35,836 nucleotides of DNA from Methanoregulaceae archaeon PtaB.Bin056 (lineage in GTDB: Archaea; Halobacteriota; Methanomicrobia; Methanomicrobiales; Methanospirillaceae), in assembly GCA_002067095.1 (NCBI GenBank), contig MVQD01000072.1, forward strand, positions 1-35,836. The letters are read 5' to 3'. The first letter of the stretch is position 1, and each line of letters opens with the position of its first letter. The notes under the pieces are model-generated. The model made no database searches and was not told where the DNA came from. It saw only the letters and a list, made by a program, of their open reading frames with translations. Shown here in pieces: positions 4,259 through 21,599 of this stretch. The position numbers were made by a program, and so were the translations under genes.

Positions 4259-6949
4259 ATGGACGATGAGCCAATAGAAGGGCCGCAGCGCGGCAATTTT
4301 CTTCTGTCCGGGATATGGTCACCCCGCACCATGCACATCCTCGTCCAGGTGGTGGGGGTCGGTGTGGTGCTCCTCCTGCTTGCCCTGACAAGCACCTACA
4401 GTTACCTTCTTTTCCACAGCATTGTCGAGATCTTCACAATAGTCATCTCCTTCTCCATCTTCATCCTTGTCTGGAACGGCAAAAAGTCAATCGACAATGC
4501 ATTTTTCCTGGTCGTCGGCGTTGGTCTCCTCTTTGCGGGGGGGATCGACATTCTCCACACGCTTGCTTACAAGGGGATGGGAGTGTTCACGTTCGGAGGC
4601 GCCGACCTTCCCACCCAGCTCTGGATCGCGGCCCGGTATCTCCAGGCGTTCTCACTCCTCCTTGCCCCGCTTGCCATCGGGAGGAAAGTCAGGGTTTCGA
4701 CCCTGATTGCGGTCTTCGGGTTCGCAACCGCCGCACTGATCGCGGCAATCTTTACCGGGGTATTCCCCCACTGCTTCATCGAGGGCAGCGGCCTCACACC
4801 TTTCAAGATTTACAGTGAATACGTGATTTGCGCTATCCTTGGGGTTTCAATCGTTCTCCTCTACCGGGCACGGGAATATTTCGATCCCGATGTGCTGGCC
4901 CTCCTTATGTTGGCAAATGTCTTCTTTATCGGGGCAGAACTCTCGTTTACCGCGTATGTGAGCGTTTACGGCTTTGCCAACATGCTTGGCCATCTCCTGC
5001 GGGTGGTCGCTGTCTACCTGTGGTATCTGGCGTTTCTCGATATCGGGCAGAAACGGCCATTCGACCTGCTCTGGCGGGAGATGAAGCTGAACGAAGAGCA
5101 GCTGCGGAAGAGCGAGGAGAAATACCGCAGCCTCTTCGAGACGATGCTCGAAGGATTCGCGTTTTGCAGGATGATCTATGATGGCTCGGGCAGGCCCGTG
5201 GACTGGGAATATATCGAAGTGAACCCGGCATTCGGGCGCCTGACTGGCCTCCGGGATATTGTCGGAAAGAAAGTCAGCGAGGCAATCCCCGGAACGCGAG
5301 AGCAGTCACCCGAGATATTTGAGATATACGGGAGGGTTGCAGCGACCGGCAAACCCGAGACATTTGACGTATTCTTCACACCCTTGAGTATCTGGCTCCA
5401 CATATCGGTTTCGAGCCCCCAGAAAGGGTATTTTGTTGTGGTATTTGAGGATATCACCAATCGTAAGGCAGCCGAAGAAAAGCTCTCGTTCCTTGCGGCG
5501 ATCACCGAACACTCGTATGATGCCATCATCGGCAAGACCCCCGACGGGATCATCACGTTCTGGAACGCGGGTGCAGAGAAGATATATGGCTACACTCCTG
5601 CTGAAATGACGGGAAGGCCGATAACGGTACTGGTCCCCCCGGGGCACCCTGACGATACCAAAACACTCATCCAGAGGATCCGTGCAGGGGAGGCCGTCAT
5701 CAGGCAAGAGACCATCCGCCAGAGAAAGGACGGGGCCCTCATTCACGTCTCCCTGACGCTTTCCCCGGTGAAGGCCATGGACGGCTCACTGATCGGGATA
5801 TCGACCATTGCAAGGGACATCACCGGGCAGAAAGCGGCCGAAGAGGCCCTCCGCCAGAGCGAGGAGATGTTCCGGAGTTACATCGAAAATGCCCCCGACG
5901 GGGTATTCGTCGCAGACGCACAGGGTAATTACGTCATGGTAAACGATGCAGCCTGCGAGATGACCGGGTTTTCGAGGGAGGAGCTTCTCAGGAAGAACAT
6001 CAGGGACCTCGTCTTCCCCGGAGACCAGCACATTGGATTCGAGCATTTCCGGCGGGTGAAAGAGGAGGGGCAGGCGATCGGAGAAACGAGATATGTCACG
6101 AAGAGCGGCGAGGTCCGATACTGGCTTGTCAAGGCCGTCAGGATCAATGACCAGCGGCTGCTGGGATTTGCAAGCGACATCACCGACCGGAAGATGATGG
6201 AGTCAGAGATCCGCTCCCTGAACACGGTCCTCGAACAGAAGGTAGAGGAGCGGACACGGGCTCTGGCGGACTCGAATGTCGCGCTGGAGGAGGAGATATC
6301 CCAGCGGATGAAGACAGAGGAGCAACTGCAGGCAATGCTGAACGAGAAGACCCTGCTCCTCCGCGAGGTCCATCACCGGGTGAAGAACAACCTCCAGATC
6401 ATCATCAGCCTGACAAACCTCCAGCTCCGCCAGATCGAGGACCCGCAGATGAAGCGGATCATGGCAGAGACCCAGAACCGTGTGCGGGCAATGGCACTCG
6501 TGCACGAGAAGCTCTACAAGTCCGAGACCCTCGCGGATATCGATCTCGCCGAGTATGTACGCTTCCTCACCTCCCATCTCTTCGCGTACTACGAGACCGA
6601 TTCCCGGAGAGTGACCCTGAAGATCGAGATCGGGGAGATCATGGTGTCCATCAACACCGCCATTCCTATCGGGCTTATTCTCAACGAGCTGGTCTCAAAC
6701 GCGCTCAAGCATGCGTTTCCGGGGGGGCGGTCAGGGACACTGGCGATCTCGGCCAGCAGTGACAAGAACACCATCAGCCTCGCGGTGAAAGACAACGGTG
6801 TCGGCATCCCGGCAGACCTTGACTGGAGGAATACCCAGTCGCTTGGGCTCAGGCTTGTCGTGTCCCTCGTGAACCAACTGGACGGGACCATCGACCTTGA
6901 CAGGAGCGGGGGGACCGCGTTTACCATGGTGCTGAAGGTGAAGGAGTGA
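4259..6949 (+). CDS. MASE3-type membrane sensor histidine kinase with three PAS domains
   Basis: This 896-residue sensor kinase begins with about 260 residues containing several hydrophobic helices. They match the MASE3 membrane sensor type (for example the GGIDILHTLAYKGM stretch after the second helix pair). Three PAS domains follow at about 285-400, 410-530 and 535-655. A coiled coil then leads to a HisKA_2 helix with [11 protein letters not shown] (His706 expected acceptor). The HATPase domain carries [12 protein letters not shown] and DNGVGIPADLDW. The linker ESEIRSLNTVLEQ is almost identical to that of the upstream kinase, so the two are paralogues through their catalytic ends. The ATG lies 3 bases after the previous stop and the next gene starts 6 bases after its own stop. 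The ligand of the membrane domain is unknown. Confidence 0.93.
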   Translation: MDDEPIEGPQRGNFLLSGIWSPRTMHILVQVVGVGVVLLLLALTSTYSYLLFHSIVEIFTIVISFSIFILVWNGKKSIDNAFFLVVGVGLLFAGGIDILHTLAYKGMGVFTFGGADLPTQLWIAARYLQAFSLLLAPLAIGRKVRVSTLIAVFGFATAALIAAIFTGVFPHCFIEGSGLTPFKIYSEYVICAILGVSIVLLYRAREYFDPDVLALLMLANVFFIGAELSFTAYVSVYGFANMLGHLLRVVAVYLWYLAFLDIGQKRPFDLLWREMKLNEEQLRKSEEKYRSLFETMLEGFAFCRMIYDGSGRPVDWEYIEVNPAFGRLTGLRDIVGKKVSEAIPGTREQSPEIFEIYGRVAATGKPETFDVFFTPLSIWLHISVSSPQKGYFVVVFEDITNRKAAEEKLSFLAAITEHSYDAIIGKTPDGIITFWNAGAEKIYGYTPAEMTGRPITVLVPPGHPDDTKTLIQRIRAGEAVIRQETIRQRKDGALIHVSLTLSPVKAMDGSLIGISTIARDITGQKAAEEALRQSEEMFRSYIENAPDGVFVADAQGNYVMVNDAACEMTGFSREELLRKNIRDLVFPGDQHIGFEHFRRVKEEGQAIGETRYVTKSGEVRYWLVKAVRINDQRLLGFASDITDRKMMESEIRSLNTVLEQKVEERTRALADSNVALEEEISQRMKTEEQLQAMLNEKTLLLREVHHRVKNNLQIIISLTNLQLRQIEDPQMKRIMAETQNRVRAMALVHEKLYKSETLADIDLAEYVRFLTSHLFAYYETDSRRVTLKIEIGEIMVSINTAIPIGLILNELVSNALKHAFPGGRSGTLAISASSDKNTISLAVKDNGVGIPADLDWRNTQSLGLRLVVSLVNQLDGTIDLDRSGGTAFTMVLKVKE

Positions 6950-6955
6950 GGTGGC

Positions 6956-9900
6956 ATGCAAATGGCGCCGGGTAGTGAAAAGACAGAGACTATGAATCAT
7001 GAGCCGCGAGTGGGACATGCGTCAGGCCACATCGTCAGGATGACTGAGGCCAGATGGAGGATTGCCATCGTCGCCCTCTCTTTCCTGGTTACCCTTGTCG
7101 CTGTCGGCTGCCTCTCGCAGGGAGTCACCATCATCTTCATGCACCTCTATTACCTCCCGATTGTCCTCCTCGCCTATCACTACCGGAGGCAGGGACTTGC
7201 CGGCATCCTCCTCCTTGCCCTCTCCTACCTTGGCCTTGTCATCGCGTTTGACCCCGGCGATCCCACGGTAATCGAAGGAGCGGTCATCAGGGTCCTCGTC
7301 TTCATCGGCATCGGAGGCCTGGTGATATACCTCTCCGAGCACCTGGTTGAGACCGCGGAGAGACTCAGGAAGACCCTGCAGGTCCAGCAAAGCATTCTCC
7401 AGAACGCAAATGTCTGGCTGATGATCCTTGACAAGGAGGGCCGGGTGCTCGAGTGGAACACCGCAGCAGAAAAGATGAGCGGGTATCATGCTTCTGAAGT
7501 GCAGGGAAAGAACGATATATGGCGACTCCTCTACCCCGACAGGGACTACCGGAAGGAGATTACGGCGACGATCAACGAGATCATTGCGACGAAAAAAATC
7601 CTTGAGAATTTTTCCACCACCATCCGACAAAAGGACGGGTCTTCCCGGACCATCCTCTGGAATACCCGGGAGGTCCCCCACGAGAATGGAAATTCTCCCC
7701 TCTTTATCGCGATCGGCGTGGACATCACCGGACAGAGGCGCAGGGAGGAAGATCTCCACCTCCAGGCGACCAGGTTCCAGAAGCTGCTCGACCTCAACCG
7801 GTTAAAAGATGCCCCATTCAAGGAACAGCTCAGCCTCTCGCTCGAGGCAAGCCTCGATGTGACAAAGAGCATATACTCCTTCATCGGCCTGATAAGTCCG
7901 GACGAATCGGTCATGACCATACACTCGTGGTCGAAGGGTGCCATGAAGGACTGTGCAGTATCGGACAAGCCGATGCACTATCCCCTCTCATCCGCGGGAG
8001 TGTGGGGAGAGTGCATCCGGCAGAGGGCCCCGTTCGTCCTCAACGAGTATACCTCCGCCCATCCCGCGAAGCACGGGTACCCGGATGGGCATGTCCCCAT
8101 CACCCGTTACCTGGGGGTGCCCATTTTTGACGGGGGCAGTATTGTTGCGGTCATCGCAGTGGCAAATAAACAGGATCCGTATGACGAGGGAGACATCAAT
8201 GCCCTCACAGCGATTGGAAACCAGATGTGGGAGCAGTTGCACCGGAGACAGGCCGAGGAGATGCTCCGCGAGCATGAGCGCATACTCAACGAAGTAGGCC
8301 GGCTCGCAAAGGTCGGGGGGCTCGAACTTGACATCGGCACACGCACGGTGAAGTGGACCCGGGAGACCGCTACTCTCCATGACCTGCCGCCCGACACTGA
8401 CCACCTCGACCTTGCGGAAGGGCTCCTCTTCTTCGATCAGCCCGGGAGGTTCATCCTCTCTGCAGCAATCACGAGGTGCATGGAGACCGGAGAGCCCTTC
8501 GACTTTGAGCTCCCCTTCACCAGCGCCAAAGGCAGACACCTCTGGACACGCATCATGGGGCGGGCAGTGACCGAGGAGGGAAAGGTCGTCAGCCTGATCG
8601 GAGCCATTCAGGACATCACCGACTTAAAGCAGGCACGAAAAGCCCTGGAACAGAGCGAGGAGAAGTTCCGCGGTGTCGCCGAACGGAGCTCTGATCTCAT
8701 CCTCATCACGGATCAATCCGGCACCGCGATCTATGCGTCTCCTGCGACAGAGAAGATCCTGGGATACCACCCCGAAGAGGTCACCGGCAGGACCGCCTTT
8801 GATTTTGTCCTCCCGGAATCGCATGAAGCAGTGCGGGAAACGATGAGTAAAAACCTCGGCGGGCATACCGTGGAAGACCTGAAGGTTCGTGTCAGGAAAA
8901 AAGACGGCAGTTATGTCTTACTGCAGTGTTCAGTCTCTCCTGTCATCAAAGACGGAAGTGTTACAGGCATCCAGGTAATCGGCAGGGACGTGACTGAGCA
9001 GAGAGCTGCACAAGAGCATATCGCGAAACTCCTCAAAGTCCTCAGGGAGCAGGTCCGGATCATCAACACGAGCCCGGTCGTCGCGTTCCTCTGGAAGGCA
9101 GAAGAGGGCTGGCCTGTTGAAACGGTGAGCGAGAATATCACCCAGTTTGGGTATACCCCCGATGATTTCCTTTCAGGCAGGGTCTCCTATGTGGCTCTCA
9201 TTCACCCCGATGATCTCGACCGGGTAAGCGCCGAGGTGACGTACAACAGCGGGCATGGGATAAACGAGTTCACCCAGCAGTACAGGATACTGGCAAAGGA
9301 CGGGAAAGAACACTGGATAGACGATTATACCCACATCCGCCGTGGCAACGACGGAACGATCACCCACTACGAAGGACTCATCCTCGATATTACTCGCCGG
9401 AAACGCGCAGAAGACGCGCTCCGGAAAAGCGAACAGCGGAATGCACGCCTTATCGAGGCGGTTCCTGACCTGATGTTCACAATCTCCCGGGACGGTGTGT
9501 ACCTCGATTTCCATGTCCCGGACAGGTCTGTTCTTGCAATTCCTGCGGACCAGATCCTTGGCAGGAACATCCGGGATACCGGCTTTTCACAGGAGATGAC
9601 AGAACTGATGATGGAGCGCATCGCCCTTGCGATAGATACCCAGGAGCTCCAGCAGTTTGAGTACGATCTCACTCTCCAGGGGGTACTCCGCCATTACGAG
9701 GCACGCATGGTTGCGATCGACCAAAACGAGGTGCTTGCCATCGTCAGGGACGTGACCAAGCAGAAGCAGGCGGAAGCGCTGCAGAAGCACTTCATGGAGG
9801 AGCTCGAGCAGCAGGTGGTCGCCCGTACCAAGGCCCTGAACGCGTCCCTAAATGAGAAGGTGTTGCTTCTACGAGAGGTCCATCACCGGGTCAAGAACAA

Positions 9901-10477
9901 CCTCCAGATCATCATAAGCCTCATGAACCTCCAGATGCGCAAGGCTGAGGACCCCAGGTTAAAGGAGATTCTGCTGGAGACCCAGGACCGGGTACGGGCG
10001 ATGTCGCTTGTCCACGAGAAGCTGTATGTATCTGAAGACCTCTCGCGCATCAACCTTTCCACATATCTTCACTCACTCTGCACGCAGCTCATCTCCTCAC
10101 ACGGCGACATCGCACGGAAAGTAACTTTACATATGGAATTCGATCCTATCATGACAGACATCAATGTCGCTATCCCATTCGGCCTGATTATAAACGAGCT
10201 GGTCTCAAATGCCCTCAAGCACGCGTTCCCTGGCGAGATGAAAGGGGTTGTCACCCTCTGCGGGAGAGTGGAGAATGGCGGGATCGTGGTATCTGTGGAG
10301 GACGACGGTATAGGGTTTCCGGAAGGGTTCGACTGGCGCGATAGCCCGACGCTCGGGCTCCACCTGGTCCCGACGCTGGTCAGGCAGCTCAACGGAAGAA
10401 TCGAGCAGGTGAACAAGGAAAAAGGAACCCTGTTCCGGGTGGTCATCCCGGGAGATATGACGGGAGAAGCAGCATGA
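6956..10477 (+). CDS. Membrane sensor histidine kinase with five PAS and one GAF domain
   Basis: The protein has 1173 residues. After a short cytosolic lead come about four closely spaced hydrophobic helices (residues about 30-130). The order is then PAS (about 145-265), GAF (about 275-430, with the typical R-Y-L-G-V-P-I-F and A-V-I-A-V-A-N-K strands), and four more PAS domains (about 435-960). Next are a HisKA_2 helix with [11 protein letters not shown] (His977 expected acceptor) and a HATPase with [12 protein letters not shown] and [12 protein letters not shown]. The ATG at 6956 follows a GAGGTGG stretch that begins inside the upstream stop region; later in-frame ATGs at 6992 and 7039 are possible starts. 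The stop overlaps the next response-regulator start as ATGA, so kinase and regulator are probably made together and are likely cognate. Confidence 0.92.
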
Positions 10478-11457
10478 CATCGACGCGCATTCTGGTGGTT
10501 GAGGACGAGCAGATCGTCGCAGAGGACCTGAAAATGACCCTTGAGAGCCTGGGATACCAGGTGGCAGGTATTGTCAGCACCGGGGAGAGGGCCATCAAAC
10601 TGGCCGACACGGAGAAACCGGACCTCATCCTGATGGACATCATGCTTGCGGGAAAGATAGACGGGATCACTGCAGCATCAGAGATACGCGCAAGCCATGA
10701 CATACCGGTCATCTACGTCACGGCCTATGCCGATTCGACCCTCCTTGACCGGGCAAAACTGACCACTCCCTACGGATACATCGTGAAGCCCTTCAACGAG
10801 CGCGAGGTCCAGTCCAACATCGAGATCGCACTCTTCAAGCACCGGATGGAGCACGAGATAAAGAAGCGGGACGCCATTCTCCTTGCCCTGGGATTCGGGG
10901 TGGAATGGTTCCTCCGGCAGTTCTCTGATACCCACAGGATCACCCTTGGGGACGCTACCGACACCTGGGGCTACGATTTCCACCCGATCCTCGAGCAGGT
11001 TGCGATTGCGATGGACCTTGACCGGGTACAGGTCTTACGGTTCAGAGAGGCAGCGGGGAGGCCCGAATCGCTTGACCTGATCAGCGAATGGACGATGGGG
11101 GCCACCCCCTACCACCTCAAGGGGAATGAGAGCCCGGTGGTTGCCCTCTCAGAGATCGGCCTCTCGGGATCGATGCAGGACCTCCTTGGGGGAACCCCTG
11201 TCAAATTACACCCGGAGACACTACCGGGAAGTGAATCTCCCCTGCTTGTACAGATAGGAGTCCATTCGGCTATCGCGCTCCCGATCTTTGTCCGGGACAG
11301 GATCTGGGGCCTCGTGCTCTTTGCAACCGGGGAAGCGCGGGAGTTCCTCGGAGAGGAGATAGAAGCCATGAAGATCGCGGTCAACATCATCGGCGGGGCG
11401 ATCAGCCTCTATGTCTCGGCAGAAGGACAGTCCCGCAGGGGTCCCGCCGTGCAATGA
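10474..11457 (+). CDS. Response regulator, REC-GAF-like, no DNA-binding output
   Basis: The N-terminal 120 residues are a complete receiver domain: acidic pair E10/D11, phosphoacceptor D55 (LILMDIML), T83 and K105 (VKPF). After a short helical linker, residues about 150-315 look like a GAF domain ([10 protein letters not shown], then a W-G-L-V-L-F strand). There is no helix-turn-helix or recognisable enzyme domain. Signalling is therefore probably by protein contact or phosphotransfer, with the GAF part adding a second input. It overlaps the preceding kinase gene by four bases, which makes that kinase the most likely phosphodonor (inference). Its receiver is closely related to that of the gene at 11564 (both carry the run [10 protein letters not shown]), pointing to duplication. 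Confidence 0.9.
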
Positions 11458-11563
11458 ACTGCCCAGTATGTGGTGAAAGAAGAAGATACCAATGGATGGT
11501 GATCACTGCCGCGGGTGGTCCCTGTAGACCGATCCCGGCCTGGCACGGCTCACGGGTATTCCC

Positions 11564-13228
11564 ATGACCACGATCCTGATCACTGAAGACGAGCAGGTCG
11601 TCGCAGAGGACCTGAAGATGACTCTCGAGGGCTTTGGCTACACGGTCGCGGGAATCGCACCGTCGGGCGAGCAGGCCATTGCGCTGGCCGGACAGGTCCA
11701 CCCCGACCTTGTCATGATGGACATCTTCCTTGCCGGGGAGATGACGGGAATCCAGGCGGCAGAGGAGATCAGGTCACGCCTTGACATCCCGATCATCTTT
11801 TTAACTGCGTATTCGGAGTCCCAGATCATCGAGCAGGTGCGTGAGACCGGGCCGTACGGATATCTCCTGAAACCATTCAACGAACAGGAGATGTACATCG
11901 CGATCGAGATCGCCCTCTCTCGCCACTCCATGGACCGATCACTCCGCGAGAGCGAACAGCGGTACCGGCTCTTTGTCGAGCACTTCCAGGGGATTGCATT
12001 CAGGCTCTCCCTGGACCTCTCGCCTGTCTTTTACCATGGCGCACTCTCACAGATCACCGGCTATACCGAGGCGGAGGTCACTGTCGGGAAACCCTCCTGG
12101 GAGACGCTGGTGCACCCCGGCGACCGCCAGACCTACCACCTCGAGATGGAGAAGGCCCGAACCATGCCCGGGTATACGAGCGAGTTCCAGTTCCGGATCA
12201 TCCACCAGCAGGGAGTAACCCGGTGGATCAGGGCATTTATCCAGAATGTCGTGGACCAGCGGAACGATCCCCTTTTTATCCAGGGGGCTTTCTACGACGT
12301 TACGTCAACAGTCGAGGTCGAGGAGAGGCTTCGGGCATTGAACGAACACCTCGATGACCTGGTGAAGAAGAGGACACTGGATCTCGAGGCGACCAACCGT
12401 GAGCTTAACCTGAAGAACCGTGCGCTGCAGATCACCACTGCAGGCACCCGTGCCCTGGTGGTTGCCCGGGGCGAGCAGGACCTCCTGGCGATCATCAGCC
12501 GCATCCTCTCGGCATCAGGAGGGTACCGGGCGCTCTGGATAGGGACGCTCGGAGAGGGACCCGAGATACTGGCCCAGTCAGCACATGGTGAGCCCTGTTT
12601 TTCTCGTTCGGTGCCACACATCGTCGATGACCTCCCTCCCTGCATGCAGGAGGCGCTCCGCCGGGAGGGAGTAATAGTGTACAGGAAAGGCGAGGAGGCA
12701 TGTTCCCGCTGCCGGTTCAACAATGAGAAGACGGGGGTGCATGTCCTTGCCACTACGCTCCGATCAGCCACTCGCGTTGTGGGGGGGGTGTATGCCGTGC
12801 TGCCCGAACACCTCATGCCCGATCCGCAGGAGATCGCCCTCTTCCAGCAGATGGCACAGGAGATCTCTTTCGTGATTGGGTATCTCAGGAGTGGCGAGCG
12901 GGAGAAGGTTGCGCTGGAACAGATCTCCCGGATCCTCGAGCAGCTCGCAACTCTCAACGACCATATCCGCAATCCGCTTCAGGGAATCGTGGGCTACGCA
13001 AGTCTCCTCGACGACCCGAGCTCCGGCAAGGTCATCGATCTCTGCATGCAGGTCAACGAGATCGTGGACAAACTCGACAGGGGTTACCTGGAATCAAAGA
13101 AGGTCAGGAGCTACCTTGAGCGCCATGAGCATATCTCCCGGCAGTATGGGAAAGAGCGGAAGTTCCCGCGGACTAAAAAGAGTGCCGTGACATCGTCCAC
13201 GGATCCACATCACGAACGACCATGGTGA
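11564..13228 (+). CDS. Response regulator REC-PAS-GAF with C-terminal DHp-like His helix
   Basis: The protein has 554 residues. A receiver domain (D53, T80-region T-A-Y, K in LKPF) is followed by a PAS domain (about 125-255), a coiled coil and a GAF-like domain (about 285-450). That domain carries a Cys cluster (EEACSRCRF). The C-terminal 110 residues resemble a histidine-kinase dimerisation hairpin, with NDHIRNPLQG around His467, but no ATPase domain follows. Under this reading the protein could relay phosphate but not autophosphorylate. The start is the only plausible one: an in-frame stop at 11525 precedes it and no other start codon lies between. No clear ribosome site is seen. The 106-base gap to the upstream gene holds no obvious promoter. 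It overlaps the next gene by 7 bases. Confidence 0.88.
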   Translation: MTTILITEDEQVVAEDLKMTLEGFGYTVAGIAPSGEQAIALAGQVHPDLVMMDIFLAGEMTGIQAAEEIRSRLDIPIIFLTAYSESQIIEQVRETGPYGYLLKPFNEQEMYIAIEIALSRHSMDRSLRESEQRYRLFVEHFQGIAFRLSLDLSPVFYHGALSQITGYTEAEVTVGKPSWETLVHPGDRQTYHLEMEKARTMPGYTSEFQFRIIHQQGVTRWIRAFIQNVVDQRNDPLFIQGAFYDVTSTVEVEERLRALNEHLDDLVKKRTLDLEATNRELNLKNRALQITTAGTRALVVARGEQDLLAIISRILSASGGYRALWIGTLGEGPEILAQSAHGEPCFSRSVPHIVDDLPPCMQEALRREGVIVYRKGEEACSRCRFNNEKTGVHVLATTLRSATRVVGGVYAVLPEHLMPDPQEIALFQQMAQEISFVIGYLRSGEREKVALEQISRILEQLATLNDHIRNPLQGIVGYASLLDDPSSGKVIDLCMQVNEIVDKLDRGYLESKKVRSYLERHEHISRQYGKERKFPRTKKSAVTSSTDPHHERPW

Positions 13229-13611
13229 CCATAGCCATCATCGATGATGACCCCTACATTGTGGAGATCTTCACCCTCACCTTTGAACGGGCAGGGTATT
13301 TTGTCCTCTCCTATACCGACCCCCTGCACGCACTCAGGGATCTTCCCTCGAGGGACCCCTGCCTGATCATCCTTGACCTGATGATGACCCCCATCACGGG
13401 CCTCCAGTTCCTCGACCGGTGGAAGACGCTCGACCCACCCCGCAGTGTCCCGGTAGTCATACTCTCGGCATGGGACGTGTCCCCAGTGGACAGGGAGAAG
13501 TATGCGAAGGAGATCACGAGGATCATCCGCAAACCGGTGCTGCCGAAATTGCTTCTTGAGATCGTAAGGGATCTGTGTCCGGGCGGGCAGGCCACCGAAG
13601 GCCCCCGATAG
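13222..13611 (+). CDS. Stand-alone receiver-domain response regulator
   Basis: This 129-residue protein is a single CheY-like receiver. The acidic cluster is D8-D9-D10, the phosphoacceptor is D52 (LIILDLMM), a Ser replaces the usual Thr in V-I-L-S-A, and the Lys is in I-R-K-P-V. There is no output domain. The ATG lies inside the end of the preceding gene (7-base overlap), so expression is probably coupled to the REC-PAS-GAF-His protein. That partner's C-terminal histidine could exchange phosphate with this receiver (inference). This is the last gene of the plus-strand signalling array; the next 250 bases hold no gene that I can support. Confidence 0.9.
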   Translation: MVTIAIIDDDPYIVEIFTLTFERAGYFVLSYTDPLHALRDLPSRDPCLIILDLMMTPITGLQFLDRWKTLDPPRSVPVVILSAWDVSPVDREKYAKEITRIIRKPVLPKLLLEIVRDLCPGGQATEGPR

Positions 13612-13865
13612 TCGCCGGCGCTGGGAATGGCGAGAGGGTGCCATTCCCGCGGACTGGACGCATCTCCTGTGCTTCGGGCAGGGAATGCTCCCGTTCGAAT
13701 TGCCCGGAAAGTCCTAAAAGGAGGGACACTTCTCGCAGGACTCCGTGGGGGCTGCCCACCACCGGGAAGGCACAAAATGGGACTGGCGCCTCCGGCCCGC
13801 CTCACAGCCGGCAATTGGCATGCGATGTGGAAGCGAAGGCTGCGCGGAGCACCGATAATCAGCCG

Positions 13866-14483
13866 CTACTCCCCTGCGATGAACTCCCGGTACTGGGCAG
13901 GAATATCCTCGCGTTCCTCGGCGATTGCCTTCTGGATCATAAGGAGGTTCTCGAGGATCTGCCCTAACCGGTTAGACTCAACCTCCAGCTCAGCCCTGAG
14001 CACGTCGGCGTCCTGTGCGAGAGTCCCTGCCTGCGAGGAGAGATCAGCAATGTGTTCACGGACAATGACGAGCGGCTCCCTGACCCGCATGACGGTCTCG
14101 TCTATATAGCCGATCAGGGCGCATCGCCGCTCCTCGGCGACCTTTCTGTCCCGGTTATCGATGAAGCTCTCGATAATCACCTCTTTTTTCCCAAGCGATG
14201 CTCTCGTCGCGGTCTTCAGGATTGGGATGTTATGCCCATCGCGGTTGATCAGCACACGCTCTGAGTTGTCGATATCCTGCCCAAGGTCAGTGATCGGGCA
14301 TCTCCCCCTCTCTGCGGGGCATATGTACTGGTGGCATATCCTCCCCCGGACTTCCTCCCGCTCCCTCCCTATCAGGGAGAGTGCATTGGGATTGATATCA
14401 ATGATGGTATGGTCTTCCGGGTCGATGATCATGATTCCTGTCTGGATCTTCTCAAAAATCTGGTGGAGTTCTTCTCTCTCCAT
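13866..14483 (-). CDS. Small PAS protein with a Cys-rich insert and degenerate DHp-like tail
   Basis: The first 130 residues form one PAS domain (E-E-L-H-Q-I-F-E-K-I-Q-T-G, then I-N-P-N-A). It carries a cysteine cluster C50, C55, C62 with H51 (CHQYICPAERGRCPI) followed by TDLGQ and DNSER. The arrangement suggests a metal or redox site, which is inference. The C-terminal 85 residues are helical, with MRVREPLVIV where a kinase hairpin would carry H-x-R-N-P-L; the histidine position is Arg, and no ATPase follows. I chose the ATG at 14483 because a TATA-like CTATAACC lies about 40 bases upstream and GATGGGGA precedes this ATG. Longer in-frame starts at 14498 and 14579 would lie at or before the expected transcript start. 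It could modulate the neighbouring kinases. Confidence 0.82.
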   Translation of the reverse strand: MEREELHQIFEKIQTGIMIIDPEDHTIIDINPNALSLIGREREEVRGRICHQYICPAERGRCPITDLGQDIDNSERVLINRDGHNIPILKTATRASLGKKEVIIESFIDNRDRKVAEERRCALIGYIDETVMRVREPLVIVREHIADLSSQAGTLAQDADVLRAELEVESNRLGQILENLLMIQKAIAEEREDIPAQYREFIAGE

Positions 14484-14518
14484 TACAAAATTCCCCATCA
14501 GGTGTGAAGGGCTCGTCA

Positions 14519-14872: not shown

Positions 14873-16816
14873 ATGCCCGCCAAGAAAGAGATCATAGGGG
14901 AGCTCGGAGAGGAGGGGTTGATCCTCCCGACGCTTGTAAACAATGCCCTTGCGGCAAACGACCGGATCAAGTACTTCTTTACCCTGCTCCAGGCGGCGCA
15001 GGCGAGGGCCGAGAACCCTCACGCGGACTTTTCCGGCCTCCGGGTGGAGAGAGAGGCCGCGGGCATCGAGACGAGCATCTACGACAGGGTGGTGGCGGAA
15101 TCCGAGTCGGCGGGGGAAGGGGTCGTCCGAATCCCCTATGCATCCCGTCTGCTTGGCGAGGTGAGGGAAAACATGAGGGAGATGGCAACTCCCCTGCTTG
15201 CGCGGGATGATGCCGACGCCGCAGGTTTCAGGCAGCGCCTGGAGGCACTCGAAGGGACGATTCCGGCAGGGGAGGGAGACCTTGTCGAAAGGGCGGCAAT
15301 CGAGGCGATCACCGCGGGGCAGAGGGGAGAGGGCGACAGCATCCACCTCCTCGTCATGGACATGCACCGCGCCCTGAACCGGCTCCAGGGCGACCTTGCG
15401 AGCGAGGTCATCGACGGCGCAATGGCGTATCTCCTCGGTGACGGGGACCGCGACCTTGTCCGGGCCTTCATGTCGGGTGTCAATCGGACCGCACCCCTGA
15501 AGTTCGACCACCCTGGCCTTGGGACCACCGCGACGAGGAACGGCCAGAAACTGCTCCTCCAGAACGATATCGGGATGACCGACGCCCACGTGCTGGTGAT
15601 CACCATCGAGGGCCGCACTGTGACCATCACCTATACCGATATCCACATGCCGAGGCTCCAGTTCTTCCAGGGGCTCTTTGAGGGGAGGGGAGTCAAATGG
15701 GCGGACACCCTCTCAAAGAAAGGTGCAGCAGGTTTCGAGAAGAAGATCTACCACCTCTCCACGGGCACGTATGCCGCGAAGGGAGATGACGACCTGGCGG
15801 GCTTCCTCGCGTTCGCAGGGTCGCGCCTTGTCTTTTTGATCGACTGGAACCGCGCCCGGAAACGGCTCCGTAACTTCCTCCTCACCAAGGACGCAGTCGC
15901 GGTCCTGAAATGGGCCGCGGACAACGAATTCGGGCACATGGGGTTCCTGCTTCTCGGCGGGGAGAAGATGATCTACGATGCAATGGAGATGAGTTCGCGG
16001 GTCCCGATGCGGTACGGGGAGCCGCTCCACCAGATCCTCGGGCGGGAGAGGAGCATCGAGTATTTCCAGTGGGTGCTCCGGGTCTCTGCAACAGGCCTCC
16101 TTGCACACAAGTCCCGGCTCCTGATCCAGGACGAAATTAAGGCCGAGCTGCTCCGGTACTTCCGGTCGGCGCACGAGGGCCTGATGGAGATCTGCGAGGA
16201 GCATGCGACTCTTACGATCAGCGTGGCAACCGTTGTCAGGGAGGCGCTGCAGCGCATCCAGATGGGGGGAGACGTCTCCTTCATCGCGAGGAGTGCACAG
16301 AGGGCGAAGAAATGGGAGAGCGAGGCGGACCTCGCAGTCACGAAGGTGCGGACTCTCTCCCGGAGGATCGAGAACGCCGAGTTCTACCCGGCCCTCATCT
16401 TCACCGCAGATGACGCGCTTGACTTCCTGGAGGAGGCCTCCTTCTTTGTCACACTCATCCCGTCCGTCACGTTCTCGAGGAAGATCAACCAGTCGCTCGT
16501 CGAGATGGCCGAACTCGCAGAGAGGAGCGCCCAGGAGTTCCTGAAAGCGCTGATCGCCTCGCAGTACGTCTACAAGGGGTACAGCAGGGACGACATGCAG
16601 GAGTTCCTCCAGGCGATCGACCATGTCCTCTCCCTCGAGCACCAGTCGGACGAGGCCCTCCGACTCGCCCAGAAGACCATCCTTGTCGAGTCGCGGGACT
16701 GGAAAGAGATGCAGGTCTACGGCGACCTTGCACGGACGATCGAGGAGTCCACGAACTCCATGATGAAGGCGGCGTTTCTCCTCCGGGACGACATCATGGA
16801 GAGGATGAACCGCTGA
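14873..16816 (+). CDS. Uncharacterised protein with C-terminal PhoU/DUF47-like helical domain
   Basis: The product is 647 residues, soluble, with no signal peptide or membrane helix. The first 400 residues match no family I recognise. They begin with a helical part and include an alpha/beta stretch (V-L-V-I-T-I-E-G-R-T-V-T-I-T-Y-T-D). The last 220 residues are long amphipathic helices with two ExxxD motifs (E482-D486 in ESEAD and E589-D593 in EHQSD). These are typical of the metal-binding repeats of PhoU and DUF47 proteins, which bind metal-phosphate and accompany phosphate transport. The start at 14873 is preceded by GGGGAGGGTGA at good spacing; the ATG at 14813 (20 residues longer) cannot be excluded. 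The PPDK-like gene follows after 12 bases, so the two very likely work together, perhaps in phosphate or phosphoryl sensing (inference). Confidence 0.8.
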   Translation: MPAKKEIIGELGEEGLILPTLVNNALAANDRIKYFFTLLQAAQARAENPHADFSGLRVEREAAGIETSIYDRVVAESESAGEGVVRIPYASRLLGEVRENMREMATPLLARDDADAAGFRQRLEALEGTIPAGEGDLVERAAIEAITAGQRGEGDSIHLLVMDMHRALNRLQGDLASEVIDGAMAYLLGDGDRDLVRAFMSGVNRTAPLKFDHPGLGTTATRNGQKLLLQNDIGMTDAHVLVITIEGRTVTITYTDIHMPRLQFFQGLFEGRGVKWADTLSKKGAAGFEKKIYHLSTGTYAAKGDDDLAGFLAFAGSRLVFLIDWNRARKRLRNFLLTKDAVAVLKWAADNEFGHMGFLLLGGEKMIYDAMEMSSRVPMRYGEPLHQILGRERSIEYFQWVLRVSATGLLAHKSRLLIQDEIKAELLRYFRSAHEGLMEICEEHATLTISVATVVREALQRIQMGGDVSFIARSAQRAKKWESEADLAVTKVRTLSRRIENAEFYPALIFTADDALDFLEEASFFVTLIPSVTFSRKINQSLVEMAELAERSAQEFLKALIASQYVYKGYSRDDMQEFLQAIDHVLSLEHQSDEALRLAQKTILVESRDWKEMQVYGDLARTIEESTNSMMKAAFLLRDDIMERMNR

Positions 16817-16828
16817 GGGGTGGTGTGC

Positions 16829-18436
16829 ATGAGCGCTGCAAAACCCCATCCCCGCATGGTCTCGTTCGGTTGCGGCCTTGACGAGAGCGTCCCGGCCGAA
16901 GAGTTTGGCAACAAGGCTGCAAGCCTTGCCACCATTGCGTCCCTGGGAGTCAGGGTGCCACCCGGGTTCTGCCTCGGGGTGACCCTCTGCGAGGAGTACT
17001 TCGCGTCCGGGAGGCGCCTCTCTCCGGACCTCCCTGCCCTCCTTGCAACCGGGATCTCGCGCCTGGAGAAAGCAACGGGCCTCTCATTCGGCAGCAGCAG
17101 GAGACCACTCCTTGTCTCAGTCCGTTCAGGGGCGCCAGTCTCGATGCCGGGAGTGATGGAGACCATACTGAACATCGGGCTCTCCCGGGAGACCGTCCGG
17201 GGGCTCATCTCCCTCTCGGGGAACCCAAAATTTGCATGGGACTCGTACCGGAGGCTCATCCAGAACTTCGGGCAGGTGGTGTGCCGCCAGCCCCCCGCTC
17301 TCTACCAGGCAGCGCTCCGGCAGGCGATGGAGCGGGAGGGGGTCGAGGACGAGGTCGAGCTTGACGCCGGATCCCTCCGCGACCTTGCCGTTGAGTACGA
17401 GCGGATTTTTGCCCAGAACGGAGGCGAGAAGTTCCCTGCAGGGGCCATGCGGCAGCTCGAGCAGGCGGCCGAGGCCGTCATCCTCTCGTGGGAGAGCCCA
17501 CGCGCTGAAGCCTTTCGACGGCTCAACCTCATCAGGGAAGCCCGGGGGACCGCGGTTACGGTCCAGGCGATGGTGTTCGGCAACGTGGGCTCCCGCTCGG
17601 GTGCGGGCGTTGCCTTCACGAGAAACCCCTGGCAGGGGAATGCCCAGCTGCTGGTGGACTTCAAGTTCGGGGCGCAGGGCGAGGACGTGGTCTCCGGAGA
17701 CCAGTCGGTGAGCACCCAGCAGGAGTTCCAGGCGGCGCTCCCGGAGACTTTTGCGGAGCTTGTCGAGACCGCAAAAAGGCTGGAATCCCATTTCAGGGAC
17801 ATGCAGGACCTCGAGTTCACGGTCCAGAACGGAGAACTCTACATCCTCCAGACGAGAAGCGGGAAACGCTCCCCCTACGCGGCGTTGAAGATTGCAGTCG
17901 ACCTCTGCCAGGAAGGAGTCATCTCCCCATCGGACGTCATATGGATGCTGCGGGACGTGGACCTCGATGCCGTGTCTGTCCAGCGTGTGAGGACCCGGGA
18001 CCACCCCCTCGCAGTGGGGATCCCCGCGTCCGGGGGGGTCGCATCCGGGGATATCGCGTTCTCCTGCGCGAGCGCCGAAGCAATGGAAGCGGAGGGGAGG
18101 CGCGTGGTCCTGGTGAGGGAGACACCCTCCCCCGACGATATCCCCGGCATCAGGGCGGCAATCGCCCTCCTCACTGCCCGGGGTGCCCGGACTGCCCACG
18201 CCGCGGTGGTGGCAAGACAGATGGGAAGGGTCTGCGTGGTCGGCTGCGAGAGCCTTGTCATCGACGAGGCGCGGCGGAGGTGCAGGATCAGCGGGCAGGA
18301 ACTGCGGGAAGGCGCAACAATCACTGTAGACGGGAACTCGGGGAAAATATTCCTCGGGGAGGTGGAGTACTTGTCCGATCGCCCCACTCCGCTCATCGAG
18401 ATGGTGAGGGAGTGGGAGCAGTCCCTTCACCCGTGA
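16829..18436 (+). CDS. PPDK-like ATP-binding and phosphohistidine protein lacking the PEP/pyruvate barrel
   Basis: At 535 residues this equals the N-terminal part of pyruvate phosphate dikinase (about 870 residues). PPDK signatures are plain: GNKAASLATI near the start, SVRSGAPVSMPGVMET (about 95-112), GNPKFAWDSYRRLIQ (about 130), VQAMVFGNVGSRSGAG and AFTRNP (about 245), and AQGEDVVSG. The swivelling domain carries RTAHAAVVARQMG with His457 at the phosphohistidine position. The protein ends there, without the C-terminal PEP/pyruvate TIM barrel. It should bind ATP and could phosphorylate its own His, but the acceptor is unknown. I chose the ATG at 16829 because GGGGTGG precedes it; a GTG at 16820 is the alternative. 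The only operon partner is the PhoU/DUF47-like protein. Confidence 0.88.
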   Translation: MSAAKPHPRMVSFGCGLDESVPAEEFGNKAASLATIASLGVRVPPGFCLGVTLCEEYFASGRRLSPDLPALLATGISRLEKATGLSFGSSRRPLLVSVRSGAPVSMPGVMETILNIGLSRETVRGLISLSGNPKFAWDSYRRLIQNFGQVVCRQPPALYQAALRQAMEREGVEDEVELDAGSLRDLAVEYERIFAQNGGEKFPAGAMRQLEQAAEAVILSWESPRAEAFRRLNLIREARGTAVTVQAMVFGNVGSRSGAGVAFTRNPWQGNAQLLVDFKFGAQGEDVVSGDQSVSTQQEFQAALPETFAELVETAKRLESHFRDMQDLEFTVQNGELYILQTRSGKRSPYAALKIAVDLCQEGVISPSDVIWMLRDVDLDAVSVQRVRTRDHPLAVGIPASGGVASGDIAFSCASAEAMEAEGRRVVLVRETPSPDDIPGIRAAIALLTARGARTAHAAVVARQMGRVCVVGCESLVIDEARRRCRISGQELREGATITVDGNSGKIFLGEVEYLSDRPTPLIEMVREWEQSLHP

Positions 18437-20852: not shown

Positions 20853-21599
20853 ATGAACCTCCCCCTCAAGTTCGTGCATACCCGGATAGAAGAGTACGCG
20901 ATGCAGGTGACGTTTGATCCCCGTGAAGGAAGAGGGACTGTCGTCTACAACCTCTCCCTCATCAGAAAAGAGGACCTCGAGTACGCCATCTCGGTCATGA
21001 AGGATGCCTTCAAGGCTGGGATATGCGTAAGCGGCCTTGTCCGGTTCATCGAGGAGGGAGCCCCGGTGGGAGATTTCCAGGTCCCGGCAGGGCACTGCGC
21101 GATCATCACGATGTGCAGCTCCACGCTTGACGGAGTCCTCATGAGGAAGGGTGTCCCCTCGAACCCCATCGGGGGAGGTGTGGTGGAGATAGAGAACAGG
21201 ATCCCGAGGCGGTTCACCCACATGATCCTCTACGAGCACACCACCATCGACCCGCTCCAGGCCCTCATCTCGCAGGAGATCACGTCGGTCAACGAGATGA
21301 TGAGGCGGGGAAGCGGCAATATCCTCGCGAACATCCGTCAGTGCCACATGGAGGCCGAGACGCTGGTGGGAGAGGTGATCGACGACCTTGCCGGCAGCAG
21401 TTTCTCAGGGATACTTGACGTGGGCCTCCCGAACACCCCCGCCCTCGGGGTCACCGTAGACCCCCAGTACATGGGGATCGTCGCCCTCGGGGGGACGAAC
21501 CCCATGGCCGCGATCAAGGAAGGGGGCGTCTTTGTCATGACCCAGGCCATCAAGGGGCTGATGGACGTCCAGGAGATGCAGGAGATACTGGAGTTCTAA
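20853..21599 (+). CDS. NrpR-type regulatory domain protein (DUF128), no DNA-binding domain
   Basis: The 248 residues are almost entirely one NrpR/DUF128 domain. Diagnostic stretches are GVPSNPIGGGVVEIENR, YEHTTIDPLQALI, GSGNILANIRQ, VGLPNTPALGV and VALGGTNPMAA. NrpR of methanogens represses nitrogen-assimilation genes and responds to 2-oxoglutarate. In some species the protein is split, with one part carrying the helix-turn-helix plus one such domain and a partner carrying only the domain. This gene fits the partner type, since only about 15 residues precede the domain, too few for a winged helix. TGGAGAG lies directly before the ATG. The 3' end overlaps the convergent TrmB-like gene by 4 bases. 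The DNA-binding partner is not in this window. Confidence 0.82.
   Translation: MNLPLKFVHTRIEEYAMQVTFDPREGRGTVVYNLSLIRKEDLEYAISVMKDAFKAGICVSGLVRFIEEGAPVGDFQVPAGHCAIITMCSSTLDGVLMRKGVPSNPIGGGVVEIENRIPRRFTHMILYEHTTIDPLQALISQEITSVNEMMRRGSGNILANIRQCHMEAETLVGEVIDDLAGSSFSGILDVGLPNTPALGVTVDPQYMGIVALGGTNPMAAIKEGGVFVMTQAIKGLMDVQEMQEILEF

Follow-up and report, generated by a model that had tools for sequence, protein, structure and literature searches.

Can the front half of a pyruvate phosphate dikinase (PPDK) do useful chemistry when its phosphoenolpyruvate (PEP)/pyruvate barrel is gone, and what is the gene that stands next to it for? The question is raised by two adjoining genes in a stretch of 35,836 nucleotides (nt), here called the window, read on the forward strand of contig MVQD01000072.1 of Methanoregulaceae archaeon PtaB.Bin056 (assembly GCA_002067095.1). 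Gene 2 encodes the PPDK half and gene 1 a partner protein with a PhoU-like end. The pair is old and inseparable. We see about an even chance that its products make up a dikinase that descends from PPDK, consists of two components and serves phosphate/polyphosphate metabolism; the complex, the phosphotransfer, its direction and its acceptor are predicted, and we lean towards an enzyme over a regulatory switch. The loss of the barrel was independent of that in mycobacterial VadK, and the half has been tied to a single new partner in archaea and bacteria alike.

The PPDK half

Gene 2 matches PPDK_N and the PEP-utilising mobile domain (PF00391, E 4.1e-19). Against the PPDK model TIGR01828 it aligns at positions 17-512 of 865 with 542.8 bits, less than the full-enzyme cut-off of 843, and to solved PPDKs it aligns over the first ~530 of roughly 875 residues (E down to 1e-129). 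Identity to the N-terminal half of the full-length PPDKs compared is 38-45%. Because both alignments stop there, the PEP/pyruvate barrel is absent from gene 2, as a preliminary description of this DNA had claimed. Every complete homologue of gene 2 stops at the same point, also without the barrel. Set against what makes a PPDK (EC 2.7.9.1), gene 2 has the ATP-grasp domain with its catalytic residues and the swivelling domain with its catalytic histidine, and lacks the C-terminal PEP/pyruvate barrel; in its place it has an obligate partner with an unrelated domain.

The first half of the PPDK reaction is ATP + Pi + His <-> His-P + AMP + PPi (Pi, inorganic phosphate; PPi, pyrophosphate; His-P, phosphohistidine). 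In the numbering of Clostridium symbiosum PPDK, the equivalents of K22, R92, R135, E323, Q335, R337 and H455 are present in 41 of 41 gene 2 homologues; at the positions of E279 and D280 the residue is E or D, with a single exchange at each, and at that of D321 it is D or E. The preliminary description had allowed that the ATP-grasp catalytic residues might be missing on alignment, but these residues, like those of the Pi site, prove to be conserved. Since the PPDK residues for it are kept, ATP/Pi/His chemistry by gene 2 should be possible; the roles of the aligned C. symbiosum residues in this chemistry follow Ye et al. 2001 and Herzberg et al. 1996.

Another truncated PPDK is VadK of M. tuberculosis (Rv1127c), which autophosphorylates on His422 with ATP and Mg and acts on the methylcitrate cycle (PMC13400623). 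VadK shares the truncation with gene 2, and its phosphorylated histidine is equivalent to that of gene 2, so this precedent makes autophosphorylation of gene 2 likely. The two are nevertheless different lineages. Gene 2 scores 424.4 bits against the VadK family (PRK05878/NF004531), less than the cut-off of 456, and is 33-38% identical to actinobacterial VadK-like proteins. In the tree the gene 2 halves form one clade (41 rows, support 100) and the VadK-like proteins a separate one (5 rows, support 99). Score and tree rule out gene 2 as a member of VadK, and no gene 1 homologue stands beside the VadK-like loci examined. The separate clades indicate that PPDK was truncated at least twice, and the constant place of truncation, together with the single well-supported clade, indicates that the barrel was lost once in the gene 2 lineage and never regained.

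Gene 1 and its constant pairing with gene 2

The two genes are found together wherever the sequence allows it to be seen. Gene 1 occurs in 22 of 61 relatives, and a PPDK half adjoins it in 22 of 22; in one of these, G004 (67% complete), the second gene is split across two contigs. A species-level genome collection yielded 49 gene 1 loci, in archaea (Methanolinea and other Methanoregulaceae, Methanomicrobiaceae, Methanoperedens) and in bacteria (Thiobacillus, Hydrogenophilales, Rhodocyclales, Acidithiobacillus, Acidocella, Gemmatimonadetes, Planctomyces). In 45 loci the contig extends beyond gene 1, and in all 45 a same-strand PPDK half lies 3' of it; the contigs of L070, L095, L101 and L107 end too early. 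The doubt expressed in the preliminary description, that the genes might not be conserved together, is thereby removed. The pair is also kept in the more divergent L126 and L127, and plasmid copies in Methylocella and Aquabacterium show the same adjacency among unrelated neighbours. Distances between gene 1 sequences and between gene 2 sequences are correlated (r = 0.93 over 37 loci). Full-length PPDK is present in six relatives, none with an intact gene 1. The pair is rare in the class of the Thiobacillus genome (2 full copies in a sample of 274) and patchy in the archaeal phylum, which suggests that it spread horizontally as one unit. Clustering of open reading frames (ORFs) found no constant third gene in bacteria, where the neighbours vary and include Ca-ATPase, EAL/GGDEF, PhoD, SpoT-like and sulfite reductase genes.

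Two incomplete copies of gene 1 were seen. G000:C17:9396-9926 (L028) is a fragment at a contig end, 82% identical to gene 1 residues 1-176, and its upstream genes are syntenic with window positions 13366-14487 at 73-75% nucleotide identity. We considered it as a second copy or paralogue; given the contig end and the synteny at that identity, it probably comes from a sister species, as a stray contig in this metagenome-assembled genome. At G027:C234:4176-6102 (L025, L029, L031) gene 1 is seemingly split over three frames, through an assembly error or as a decaying copy.

Gene 1 has four parts (Table 1). The window protein alone matched no Pfam or NCBIfam model, PhoU_div (DUF47) falling below the reporting threshold, while 26 of 43 homologues match PhoU_div (best E 1.4e-7) and the family profile finds the PhoU-like structure 3l39 over residues 473-642. 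The AlphaFold2 model of gene 1 (predicted local distance difference test, pLDDT, 86.7; predicted template modelling score, pTM, 0.69) matches 3l39 with a template modelling (TM) score of 0.85 on the target, as well as other PhoU structures. By profile and prediction, the C-terminus is a PhoU_div/DUF47 fold with conserved ExxxD-type motifs (E482/D486, D513-D517, E589/D593), in agreement with the preliminary description. PhoU_div proteins such as BT4638 (3l39) resemble the C-terminal 230 residues, motifs included; gene 1 differs from them in about 415 further residues with a new core and in a partner that is a PPDK half and not a Pit/Pst transporter.

The strongest conservation of gene 1 lies elsewhere. 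The preliminary description spoke of some 400 unrecognised residues fused to the helices, and the core among them indeed matches no solved fold, but they are no unremarkable appendage. Among 59 positions invariant in 43 homologues, 45 fall in residues 131-360 (21 of them polar) and nine in the PhoU part, which is less conserved than the core. The core invariants include D155, H158, D163, H165, H213, Q230-N231-D232 and T236-D237-H239 in its first half and D256-H258, R261, R318, D324, N326, R329-K330 and H355 in its second. Folded alone, the core gives a pLDDT of 82.9 and a pTM of 0.81. A fold search against the PDB returned no significant match to it, only noise at TM below 0.25 (influenza PA and others) and, without significance, a YbjN chain (TM 0.43, E 0.035). 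We infer that the core is a new domain, probably catalytic or substrate-binding; the gene pair gives a context to this domain, which has no known relatives and is fused to PhoU-like helices. A rifampin phosphotransferase-like substrate domain was also considered for gene 1 and rejected, no such structure being among the listed fold matches.

Distant relatives of gene 1 residues ~28-316 are found in two 334-aa proteins (L026 1090-2094 in G023 and L027 1252-2256 in G034; 21-24% identity). They have neither the catalytic-type motifs nor a PPDK partner, and each has an opposite-strand gene for a flavodoxin-like reductase next to it.

Polyphosphate genes and the proposed split dikinase

Genes of polyphosphate metabolism recur beside the pair. 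Collinear arrangements are PPK1-Ppx-pair (G007/L164), PPK1-CHAD-HD-Ppx-pair (G010/L165), PPK1-CHAD-metallophosphatase/HD-pair (Methanoperedens L078), pair-Ppx (L077) and Ppx-pair (Thiobacillus L088, L090). Divergent from the pair or near it are PPK1-CHAD-Ppx (Methanoculleus L074 and G052/L075), PPK1-CHAD (G022/L166) and CHAD (L071/G014). CHAD is a polyphosphate-binding module (PMC6537752). In four of 14 pair-bearing archaeal genomes, PPK1 and the pair are no more than about 10 kb apart; in none of the 14 is PPK1 that close to the PEP synthase gene. In a genome of 2.2 Mb, one gene would by chance fall within 8 kb on either side with a probability of about 0.7%; the probability would be ~3e-6 for four of 14 and ~8e-5 for three of 12, both rough, as related genomes are not independent. 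Of the archaeal genomes that are at least 90% complete, all 21 with the pair have PPK1, as do 20 of the 34 without it (Fisher p = 3.6e-4, relatedness not accounted for). Absence of the pair and absence of PPK1 tend to coincide in genera g1 and g11 (G003 and G033, and, at lower completeness, G006 and G009). The PPK1-CHAD-Ppx clusters of methanogens thus adjoin the pair in several lineages; the literature searched does not count the pair among the components of polyphosphate metabolism, and we found no description of it with PhoU, DUF47 or polyphosphate. The link of this PPDK-half module to polyphosphate genes is new here.

Two of these loci have peculiarities of their own. The protein encoded at L078:4265-5776, between CHAD and the pair, joins a metallophosphatase with a Ppx-GppA domain III/HD module and is an unusual candidate polyphosphatase. 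The L077 contig is labelled Thermoleophilia and carries an archaeal-type pair with Ppx and CHAD. As the tree places its gene 2 among archaea, this contig may be misbinned.

The preliminary description proposed a phosphoryl switch with the PhoU-like protein as partner. This interpretation is partly supported: an ATP/Pi-dependent transfer towards the partner fits the data, but the conservation points to the core and less to the PhoU end. Core conservation and gene neighbourhoods together redirect the reading towards a polyphosphate-linked split dikinase. In such an enzyme, gene 2 would bind ATP and Pi and phosphorylate its own histidine by the half-reaction given above. With the barrel lost, its swivelling His domain would then visit the core of gene 1 instead, and the phosphoryl group would be exchanged there with a bound substrate (polyphosphate or another phosphate compound) or with a residue. 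The PhoU-like end may bind phosphate or metal and tune or dock the complex, and the physiological role of the pair would lie in phosphate/polyphosphate metabolism. A more specific version, rather unlikely in our estimation, is that the pair runs polyP(n) + AMP + PPi <-> polyP(n-1) + ATP + Pi (polyP, polyphosphate), His-P being exchanged with a polyP chain held by the gene 1 core; if true, the pair would add to PPK1 and PPK2 a third polyphosphate-adenylate route, one that uses a catalytic domain of a new kind. More generally, should the proposed chemistry hold, a catalytic or phospho-acceptor domain of a new kind, and a new connection of polyphosphate with ATP/AMP and Pi/PPi, could be tested directly on the two purified proteins.

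A division of labour between two chains is known from the dikinases HpeHI and CreHI and from phenylphosphate synthase PpsAB, in which separate chains share the ATP-grasp, swivelling His and substrate domains; in these enzymes it is the substrate chain that carries the His domain, together with a substrate domain of the rifampin phosphotransferase type (PMC12167813). We liken the proposed roles of gene 1 and gene 2 to theirs, but in gene 2 the His domain stays with the ATP-grasp domain on one chain, and the substrate-side domain of gene 1 is, as far as the fold search shows, unrelated to the rifampin-binding type.

Several observations weigh against the split dikinase. PhoU_div proteins are generally regarded as regulators. 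The core has no recognisable relative of known function in profile and fold searches, no polyphosphate gene adjoins the pair in the window or at many other loci, and the PPK1 of this genome is on another contig.

The same facts can be read as a phosphorelay or regulatory switch, a reading close to that of the preliminary description, in which the level of His-P on gene 2 would sense ATP/Pi against AMP/PPi with no net metabolic product, and gene 2 would pass its phosphoryl group to the PhoU-like gene 1, or bind it, so that gene 1 controls phosphate uptake or polyphosphate enzymes. The PhoU_div fold and ExxxD motifs of gene 1, the polyphosphate and phosphate genes among the neighbours, and the precedent of VadK, which works by autophosphorylation and protein contact (PMC13400623), all fit this reading. 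It becomes somewhat unlikely because the most conserved part of gene 1 is the enzyme-like cluster in the core, and because no Pit/Pst transporter was seen as a constant partner among the scanned neighbours. Gene 1 might also be a modifier or regulator of gene 2 and not its acceptor, working for instance on a threonine as the PPDK regulatory protein does. The threonine two residues before the catalytic histidine (T458) is present in 41 of 41 gene 2 homologues, and this residue is the site of regulation in PPDK and PEP synthase (PMC12167813). Neither gene 1 nor its homologues match DUF299 (the PPDK/PEP synthase regulatory protein), however, gene 1 matches no other kinase or regulatory-protein family, the alignments show the same threonine in ordinary PPDKs without gene 1, and the barrel-less gene 2 would be left without an acceptor; we consider this role improbable.

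Ordinary PPDK activity with gene 1 as an accessory protein would need a barrel supplied in trans. The genome does encode one, in a full-length PEP synthase of 756 aa, which could serve as the donor. That protein contains the sole PF02896 match of the genome and carries its own ATP and His domains beside the barrel, there is no stand-alone barrel gene, and the barrel is missing from every complete member of the pair, which makes this explanation very improbable. The possibility, entertained in the preliminary description, that a separate gene supplies the barrel is answered by the same result. As for a decaying PPDK or an assembly or frameshift artefact, the truncation alone would suit it, but its probability is negligible: the truncation point is constant, the catalytic residues are intact, and the halves form one deep clade over archaea and bacteria. 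The same architecture in 45 loci, with that constant end, rules out a frameshift, chance or an artefact of assembly. The split dikinase, set beside all of these, is the reading we favour.

Coordinates and surroundings of the pair

Both ORFs are intact, on the same strand, and lie where the preliminary description placed them. Gene 1 starts at ATG 14873, with GGAGGGTGA just before it, and its stop codon is at 16814-16816. The frame of gene 2 is open from GTG 16820; ATG 16829 is preceded by a Shine-Dalgarno-like GAGGGGTGGTG and is for this reason the likelier start. The His457 of the preliminary description corresponds to counting from ATG 16829.

Table 1. Features of the gene pair in window coordinates.
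Feature	Position	Strand	Remarks
Gene 1 (P0001)	14873..16816	+	partner protein, 647 aa, four parts by residue
N-terminal helical part			gene 1 residues 1-130
Core domain	15263..15952	+	gene 1 residues 131-360; no solved fold matches
Linker			gene 1 residues 361-415
PhoU_div/DUF47-like helical domain	16118..16813	+	gene 1 residues 416-647
Gene 2 (P0002)	16820..18436	+	PPDK half: ATP-grasp and phosphohistidine (mobile) domains, without PEP/pyruvate barrel
Catalytic histidine codon	18197..18199	+	H460 from GTG 16820, H457 from ATG 16829; invariant in 41 homologues

Elsewhere in the window, an ORF at 20853-21599 encodes one NrpR regulatory domain (NRD1_2) as its sole Pfam domain, hence no DNA-binding part was found in it. 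Upstream of the pair, positions 4259-13611 hold a dense sensory gene cluster, with a MASE3-PAS-HisKA_2 histidine kinase, two response-regulator proteins with GAF/PAS domains and a further response-regulator-like ORF.

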